A stretch of 64,000 nucleotides of DNA from an uncultured Desulfovibrionaceae bacterium (lineage in GTDB: Bacteria > Desulfobacterota > Desulfovibrionia > Desulfovibrionales > Desulfovibrionaceae): the NCBI GenBank assembly GCA_944325195.1, contig CALUZB010000022.1, positions 1 to 64,000 on the forward strand, written 5' to 3'. Below are positions 26,610 through 28,053 of this stretch, piece after piece (within the stretch, counting starts at the first letter, position 1; every line of letters begins with the position of its first letter). The position numbers were made by a program, and so were the translations under genes. Below the pieces are notes generated by a model, which saw nothing but the letters and a program-made list of their open reading frames with translations, did no database searches and was not told the origin of the DNA.

Positions 26610-27143
26610 CTACTTATATCCCGCCTCATAGCGGATAATTTTCCGGCCGTGCCGCTCAGATGTAGGGGGAAATTCTGAAAGTTCAAGGAAATAGCCGAAG
26701 CTGATGTAAAAAGTACGGTCGTCCAAACGCGCTGGTGAGTCGAGCTTAAAGTCAAAATACAGAGGCTCGGCAACCTTCATACCCTGTGGATACTCCTGCC
26801 TGTGCTGTTCTACAATCCTTCCCCGTTGATCGGTTACATAAACGACAACAGCAGCATGTTCATAATAGCCCGCCCACTCCGGCAGCACCCCCGCCGGTAT
26901 TCTGGCTTCACCTTTTACCCCGCCTTCCATACCGCTTTCTGTGTAGCCGATATATTGAAACTCAAGAGTATTGGTAACCTGGCTCATCGGCTGTTCCAAC
27001 AACCAAGGGTTGCCACTGGAATGAGTTGGAGAATAATGTTGACAACCTAATCCACCTAAAGGCAGGCACAGCACAAAAATAAGCCAGACTTCAACCAATC
27101 TGTACCTGGTGGATTTTATGGTCAACGCATAATTTAGAATCAT
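26610..27143 (-). CDS. Putative lipoprotein of unknown function
   Basis: The 177-residue product begins with a basic then hydrophobic segment (RLVEVWLIFVLCLPLGGLGC), and C34 is a plausible lipidation site although the lipobox is not canonical. The mature part (TNTLEFQYIGYTESGMEGGV, VVVYVTDQRGRIVEQHRQEY, TFYISFGYFLELSEFPP) looks beta-rich and has no motif I can name. It starts 12 bp after the kinase-like gene on the same strand with no clear ribosome site, which suggests translational coupling. An envelope location is inference from the signal alone. Confidence 0.7.
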   Translation of the reverse strand: MILNYALTIKSTRYRLVEVWLIFVLCLPLGGLGCQHYSPTHSSGNPWLLEQPMSQVTNTLEFQYIGYTESGMEGGVKGEARIPAGVLPEWAGYYEHAAVVVYVTDQRGRIVEQHRQEYPQGMKVAEPLYFDFKLDSPARLDDRTFYISFGYFLELSEFPPTSERHGRKIIRYEAGYK

Positions 27144-27155
27144 TGATTAAGCATA

Positions 27156-27740
27156 CTAGCTTTTCAACCAATCTACAATAGCTTTTGCACACTCATCCGG
27201 GTCAAGAGCATCGGCATGTAGAATAAAGTCTGCATATGCGTTATATAAAGCATAGCGTTCTGCAATCAAATCTTCAATAGTTTGCCCGGGAGCAATAGCC
27301 AAGCCGCGATTGGGGTTACGAGCTATTCTTTCCAGAATTATCGGTGTGCTCACTTCCAGAAAAACCACCGGCCCCATACCGGCCAAATGGTCCATAGCAG
27401 CCTTGCGGTAAACAACTGAGCCACCGGTTGACAGAACGGTTTGCTCCGCTTCCACTTTACACAGTACGGAACATTCTACATCTAAGAATTCTTCTTTACT
27501 CATCATATCGGTTACGGCCTGGAGATTAGTGCCGTAAGCCGCCTCAATAAGGTGGTCGGTATCCACCTGGGTCCACCCCATGTGTTTGGCAAGCGCCCGT
27601 CCTACAGTAGTTTTTCCGGCCCCGGCCATGCCGATAAGAGTAACACAACCATTATCCCGAACCCGGTTGTATATATTTTTTGACTCAGAAAAGGCAGACA
27701 CGCCGACAGACAACGCAGAATTTGAATTATTATTGTTCAT
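27156..27740 (-). CDS. Shikimate-kinase-like small-molecule kinase (possible homoserine kinase)
   Basis: The protein is 194 residues from the ATG at 27740, which has a GGAG site; a TTG two codons earlier is the alternative. It has an Asn-rich leader, a Walker A loop GMAGAGKTT (37-45), the acidic substrate motif DTDHLIE (60-66), and a lid region with NPNRG and AERYALY. This is the shikimate kinase fold. Two substrate-site features depart from true AroK: the FRxxE motif, whose arginine grips the shikimate carboxylate, reads FLDVE (85-89), and the TGGG loop is shortened to STGGS (104-108). From memory, a shikimate-kinase-like protein is the homoserine kinase of Desulfovibrio vulgaris Miyazaki, which makes that a serious alternative. 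It is transcribed with the downstream lipoprotein. Confidence 0.8.
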   Translation of the reverse strand: MNNNNSNSALSVGVSAFSESKNIYNRVRDNGCVTLIGMAGAGKTTVGRALAKHMGWTQVDTDHLIEAAYGTNLQAVTDMMSKEEFLDVECSVLCKVEAEQTVLSTGGSVVYRKAAMDHLAGMGPVVFLEVSTPIILERIARNPNRGLAIAPGQTIEDLIAERYALYNAYADFILHADALDPDECAKAIVDWLKS

Positions 27741-28053
27741 AAGCAAATCTCCAGGACTTATTGTATAAATCGCCTGTCAGAAGATTTAATATCTGGTAGT
27801 ACAAAATTACACGATATCAGACGACAACTTTCTTGCCCAAAGAGGATCGCACGGGTTGAAAGTCATTCATCAATGATCCCCCAAAGTAACCCTAATTCAT
27901 ATTCAGCAACTCAAGCACATTGCACACAGGCATTCATGACCCCGCCCGCTTTTACAGGCGGTAACTCTATATGGGGATTTTCAAGCTGCAAGCCGCCGAT
28001 ATTGAAAAGGCAGGCCCAAAATGAGCCTGCCTTCAAACGACAAATAATAATAA
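27741..28053. other. Spacer between the shikimate-kinase-like gene and rpsI
   Basis: The spacer carries no gene. It contains the rpsI terminator at 28005-28033, a CCGCC/GGCGG repeat near 27946-27962, and AT-rich sequence near 27760-27830 where a minus-strand promoter for the kinase-like gene is likely (TATACA-like boxes), none convincing enough to call. Confidence 0.35.
28005..28033 (-). terminator. Rho-independent terminator of rplM-rpsI
   Basis: On the minus strand AAGGCAGGC, a 9-nt loop and GCCTGCCTT are followed by further T residues (28005-28008 on the complement). It lies 21 bp after the rpsI stop. Confidence 0.82.

Follow-up and report, generated by a model that had tools for sequence, protein, structure and literature searches.

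The window, a 64,000-nt stretch from the genome assembly of an uncultured Desulfovibrionaceae bacterium (98.3% complete, 27 contigs), carries a gene for a kinase of the shikimate-kinase fold at 27156–27740. The open reading frame lies on the minus strand, with its ATG at 27740 and its stop codon ending at 27156, and specifies 194 amino acids. Based on the NCBIfam model NF040667, the Pfam family SKI, and a phylogenetic tree, its product is a predicted homoserine kinase of the DvMF_0971 type. Reading of the sequence revealed a Shine-Dalgarno-like GGAG located 8 nt 5′ of the ATG (27749–27752, minus strand) and, 3′ of rpsI, a stem resembling an intrinsic terminator, AAGGCAGGC ... GCCTGCCTTTTC (28005–28033, minus strand). 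The stem was absent from the output of the consensus terminator scan, probably because its loop exceeds the length that the scan permits. Given this terminator-like stem after rpsI, the kinase gene probably forms a separate transcription unit. Using Rfam at the gathering threshold, no leader or riboswitch was found near the gene.

The neighboring stretch at 26610–27143 (minus strand) encodes a 177-residue lipoprotein-like protein with an LGGLGC lipobox and no Pfam matches. About a dozen Desulfovibrionales loci encode a homolog of it 3′ of the homoserine-kinase gene and in the same orientation. At two loci, L014 and L024, a gene for a cysteine-rich protein of the CxxCxxxCC type lies between the kinase and lipoprotein genes; it is absent here. 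Overall, the genes neighboring the kinase homologs vary by lineage, and searching the flanks of these homologs with the hom and thrC genes of this genome found neither. In two Desulfovibrionaceae-related loci, L042 and L052, aroE is directly upstream of the homolog, an arrangement that, taken alone, would suggest a shikimate role.

The nucleotide-binding elements of the kinase are intact, as the initial annotation had stated. Computed motif positions place the Walker A sequence, GMAGAGKTT, at residues 37–45 (27606–27632; this and all following motifs are on the minus strand) and DTD at residues 60–62 (27555–27563), the latter aligning with D32/D34 of the shikimate kinase of Mycobacterium tuberculosis. 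The shikimate pocket, in contrast, is altered. Specifically, FLDVE at residues 85–89 (27474–27488) has Leu86 in place of the shikimate-binding Arg58, and STGGS at residues 104–108 (27417–27431) has Ser108 in place of the pocket residue Gly81. Both changes, the loss of the FRxxE arginine and the reduction of the TGGG loop, had been read from the sequence initially and were recovered here, the former at the same residue numbers. A third change lies in the LID, where Arg145-Gly146 (27303–27308) retains the Arg117 equivalent and replaces Pro118 with Gly. Thus, the window protein has L, S, and G at the Arg58, Gly81, and Pro118 positions, whereas all 28 canonical AroK proteins have R, G, and P. The equivalents of Asp34, Arg117, and Arg136 are all retained in the alignment, the last as the invariant Arg162 (27255–27257). 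In the M. tuberculosis enzyme, Gly79–81, Pro118, and Leu119 are among the residues forming the lipophilic part of the pocket, Arg136 serves as the anchor of the shikimate carboxylate, and Asp34 binds a hydroxyl (PMC7144000).

Profile searches matched the window protein to NF040667 (hom_kin_desulfo, 'homoserine kinase') at 239.9 bits against a curated cut-off of 197, with protein residues 32–193 covering model positions 2–163 of 163. The protein also matched Pfam SKI (107.8 bits; cut-off, 22.1). Its best score against the shikimate-kinase equivalogs was 92.2 bits, compared with a cut-off of 161 for that model and of at least 142 for all of them. The ThrB model, TIGR00191, was not among its NCBIfam matches. 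The AlphaFold2 model had a pLDDT of 86, residues 1–20 being of low confidence, and its nearest solved structures (best ten; TM 0.78–0.89 by target) were shikimate kinases, with those of Acinetobacter baumannii, Escherichia coli, and M. tuberculosis among the top matches. In a tree of 90 proteins, computed using a quick search and with the signature columns included, the 28 canonical AroK sequences were split from all TGGS proteins (SH-aLRT 99). The Desulfovibrionales set formed one clade within the TGGS group (SH-aLRT 96), and the window protein fell inside it. The window gene is an ortholog of the known non-orthologous homoserine kinase. Current NCBI models already recognize it and would name it correctly. 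The earlier concern that automatic annotation would wrongly yield aroK no longer applies to current NCBIfam.

We evaluated which pocket residues mark this type of kinase. In the aligned Desulfovibrionales orthologs, TGGS was present in 29/29 and a residue other than Arg occupied the FRxxE position in 28/29. Of the 44 Desulfovibrionales sequences, 43 had L, I, or V at the Arg58 position; the remaining one, a Desulfovibrionaceae protein (L028), retains the Arg of FR together with TGGS. Ser108 and Tyr111 (27408–27410) did not vary in this set. Outside the order, the Arg58 equivalent was retained in 26 of 65 TGGS-clade members, Tyr111 was present in 60 of 65, and the serine was invariant throughout the clade. 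Gly occupied the Pro118 position in 107 of 109 sequences. Arg58 loss was ruled out as a diagnostic residue because Arg is present in L028 and in the 26 outside members: it is a lineage trait, not the defining mark of the kinase type. Leu86, to which the initial annotation had given weight, is thus real without being diagnostic. The outside set was gathered by a genome scan in which TGGS[VA][VI]Y was one of two patterns, so the constancy of Ser108 and Tyr111 in that set is in part a selection effect. The Pro118-to-Gly change is independent of the scan pattern.

The genome encodes homoserine dehydrogenase (hom) and threonine synthase (thrC), and two SKI genes: that of the window and one on contig 18 (18998–19459). 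The product of the latter has FRDAE and STGGG and matches the AroL equivalog at 172.4 bits, above the cut-off of 161. This gene adjoins aroC, and an aminotransferase gene and hom lie approximately 2 kb away. The second kinase with FRxxE for which a search had been proposed is accordingly present. A search for ThrB had likewise been proposed, and neither type was found in the 98.3% complete assembly: TIGR00191 yielded no match over the cut-off and a single weak one of 12.7 bits, and the alternative ThrB (TIGR00938) was not found. The 12.7-bit match is a GHMP kinase of the IspE type, encoded next to hslV, and was rejected as a ThrB. The genome's match to TIGR02535, a model of a candidate homoserine kinase that is itself unproven, is a piece of gpmI and was also set aside. 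Among 39 relatives, all 35 of good completeness had matches, and these 35 nearly always carried two SKI genes, a homolog of the window gene and an AroK.

The protein could in principle be a second, diverged shikimate kinase, forming with the contig 18 enzyme a pair such as AroK and AroL of E. coli. Its Pfam SKI match is in keeping with such a role, as are its solved-structure neighbors, all of them shikimate kinases, and the aroE genes adjoining the L042 and L052 homologs. We nevertheless consider this role highly improbable: a canonical AroK is already encoded beside aroC, three pocket positions are altered, the homoserine step would be left without an enzyme, and mutation of the homolog in Desulfovibrio vulgaris results in threonine auxotrophy (PMC5764234). 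The window protein is very probably not the shikimate kinase of this genome.

Based on the NF040667 match, the intact nucleotide and Mg site, and the altered shikimate pocket, together with the presence of hom and thrC, the lack of any other known homoserine kinase, and the separate canonical AroK, we predict with a probability of roughly 95% that the window gene encodes the cell's homoserine kinase for threonine synthesis. This was also the function proposed initially, and the family score and the genome complement favor it. The D. vulgaris Miyazaki genetics mentioned in that proposal do exist. Specifically, mutants in DvMF_0971, a gene annotated as encoding a shikimate kinase, are rescued by threonine; the gene complements an E. 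coli thrB mutant; and DvMF_1410, encoding the shikimate kinase (aroK), is apparently essential (Price et al. 2018, PMC5764234). These data also bear on whether the window enzyme phosphorylates both homoserine and shikimate, as its retained fold, ATP site, and Arg136 might allow. The threonine rescue of the DvMF_0971 mutants and the apparent essentiality of DvMF_1410 imply that DvMF_0971 does not serve as an AroK backup in vivo (PMC5764234), and dual function is extremely unlikely.

As a homoserine kinase, the enzyme would phosphorylate L-homoserine on its hydroxyl, taking the gamma phosphate from ATP and supplying threonine synthase with O-phosphohomoserine. Arg162 would still bind a carboxylate, here that of homoserine, and the second Asp of DTD would still orient or activate the hydroxyl. 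Leu86, Ser108, and the loop opened by Gly146 may remodel the pocket to fit a small, linear amino acid.

Scanning a single genome for each species identified 80 loci across several phyla. The TGGS clade, sister to AroK, includes proteins from other Desulfobacterota, Gammaproteobacteria, Clostridia, and Nitrospirota. In the phylum sample, NF040667 scores split cleanly, with 141–250 bits in 47 genomes and at most 128 bits thereafter. For eight members from outside Desulfovibrionales, NF040667 was by far the best NCBIfam match, at about 163–193 bits; as the tested members, at 160–193 bits, fall just short of the cut-off of 197, the model would not name them. Two SKI genes were present in 38 of 40 genomes carrying an outside TGGS kinase, and ThrB (TIGR00191) over the cut-off was absent from 49 of 50 carrier genomes, the exception being a Paenibacillus. 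From these two counts, the outside proteins may be unrecognized homoserine kinases. Candidates occur in Clostridia, Gammaproteobacteria such as Marinobacter and SAR86, Nitrospirota, and other Desulfobacterota. Judged from the AroK–TGGS split in the tree and these counts, the odds are about even that the Desulfovibrio enzyme represents one branch of a broad, old AroK-sister clade (TGGS / R-G) of such kinases. We found no test of function for the look-alikes in other phyla.

Exclusion of other candidate enzymes was evaluated in the phylum sample. TIGR02535 was depleted among carriers (29/47, versus 211/250 non-carriers; Fisher p = 0.0009), an effect entirely due to Desulfovibrionaceae. Outside that family there was no exclusion (p = 0.63), with 29 of 36 carriers also having TIGR02535, and the test gives no support there to the broad-clade reading. 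ThrB did not overlap with the kinase carriers in the phylum, a comparison of low power because ThrB exceeded the cut-off in just 6 of 297 genomes. Many Desulfobacterota outside Desulfovibrionales have a TGGS-type kinase and TIGR02535 together, so at least one of these families may not make phosphohomoserine there. Two genomes (L071 in G349 and L106 in G364) had a TGGS-type SKI gene only, and no canonical shikimate kinase was found in them; either these are incomplete bins, or the TGGS protein or another enzyme covers the shikimate step.

The function assigned to the window gene was largely expected, this type of enzyme being known from genetics in Desulfovibrio. The assignment completes the threonine pathway in this genome and keeps the cell from being wrongly called a threonine auxotroph or credited with a redundant aroK. 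Homoserine kinase is among the commonest gaps in amino acid pathway prediction, 29 of 148 prototrophs having a low-confidence assignment for it (PMC7311316). TGGS with R-G, versus TGGG with R-P, provides a simple signature for listing candidates in phyla with a possible gap.

The reaction inferred for the window protein is that of ThrB, a GHMP kinase (TIGR00191), and of the alternative ThrB (TIGR00938), whose folds are unrelated to the shikimate-kinase fold. With AroK and AroL the protein shares the fold, P-loop, DTD, Arg117, and Arg136; it differs from them in Arg58 to Leu, Gly81 to Ser, and Pro118 to Gly, and in missing all shikimate-kinase equivalog cut-offs. In the termite-gut bacterium 'Candidatus Desulfovibrio trichonymphae', a second 'shikimate kinase', RSDT_0983, was inferred to be the missing homoserine kinase (PMC7608387). 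The window gene resembles RSDT_0983 in this respect, although the latter belongs to a reduced-genome symbiont and its role there is a prediction only (PMC7608387). The closest counterpart is DvMF_0971, likened to the window gene through the family model and the genomic situation: common to both are the fold, NF040667, a second SKI gene, and the lack of ThrB. The window copy differs in adjoining rpsI and in having a 30-residue N-terminal extension, mostly of low model confidence. In Miyazaki F, aroK (DvMF_1410) and hom (DvMF_1412) are near each other by number and DvMF_0971 is elsewhere (PMC5764234), a proximity of AroK and hom away from the kinase gene that is mirrored on contig 18 here.
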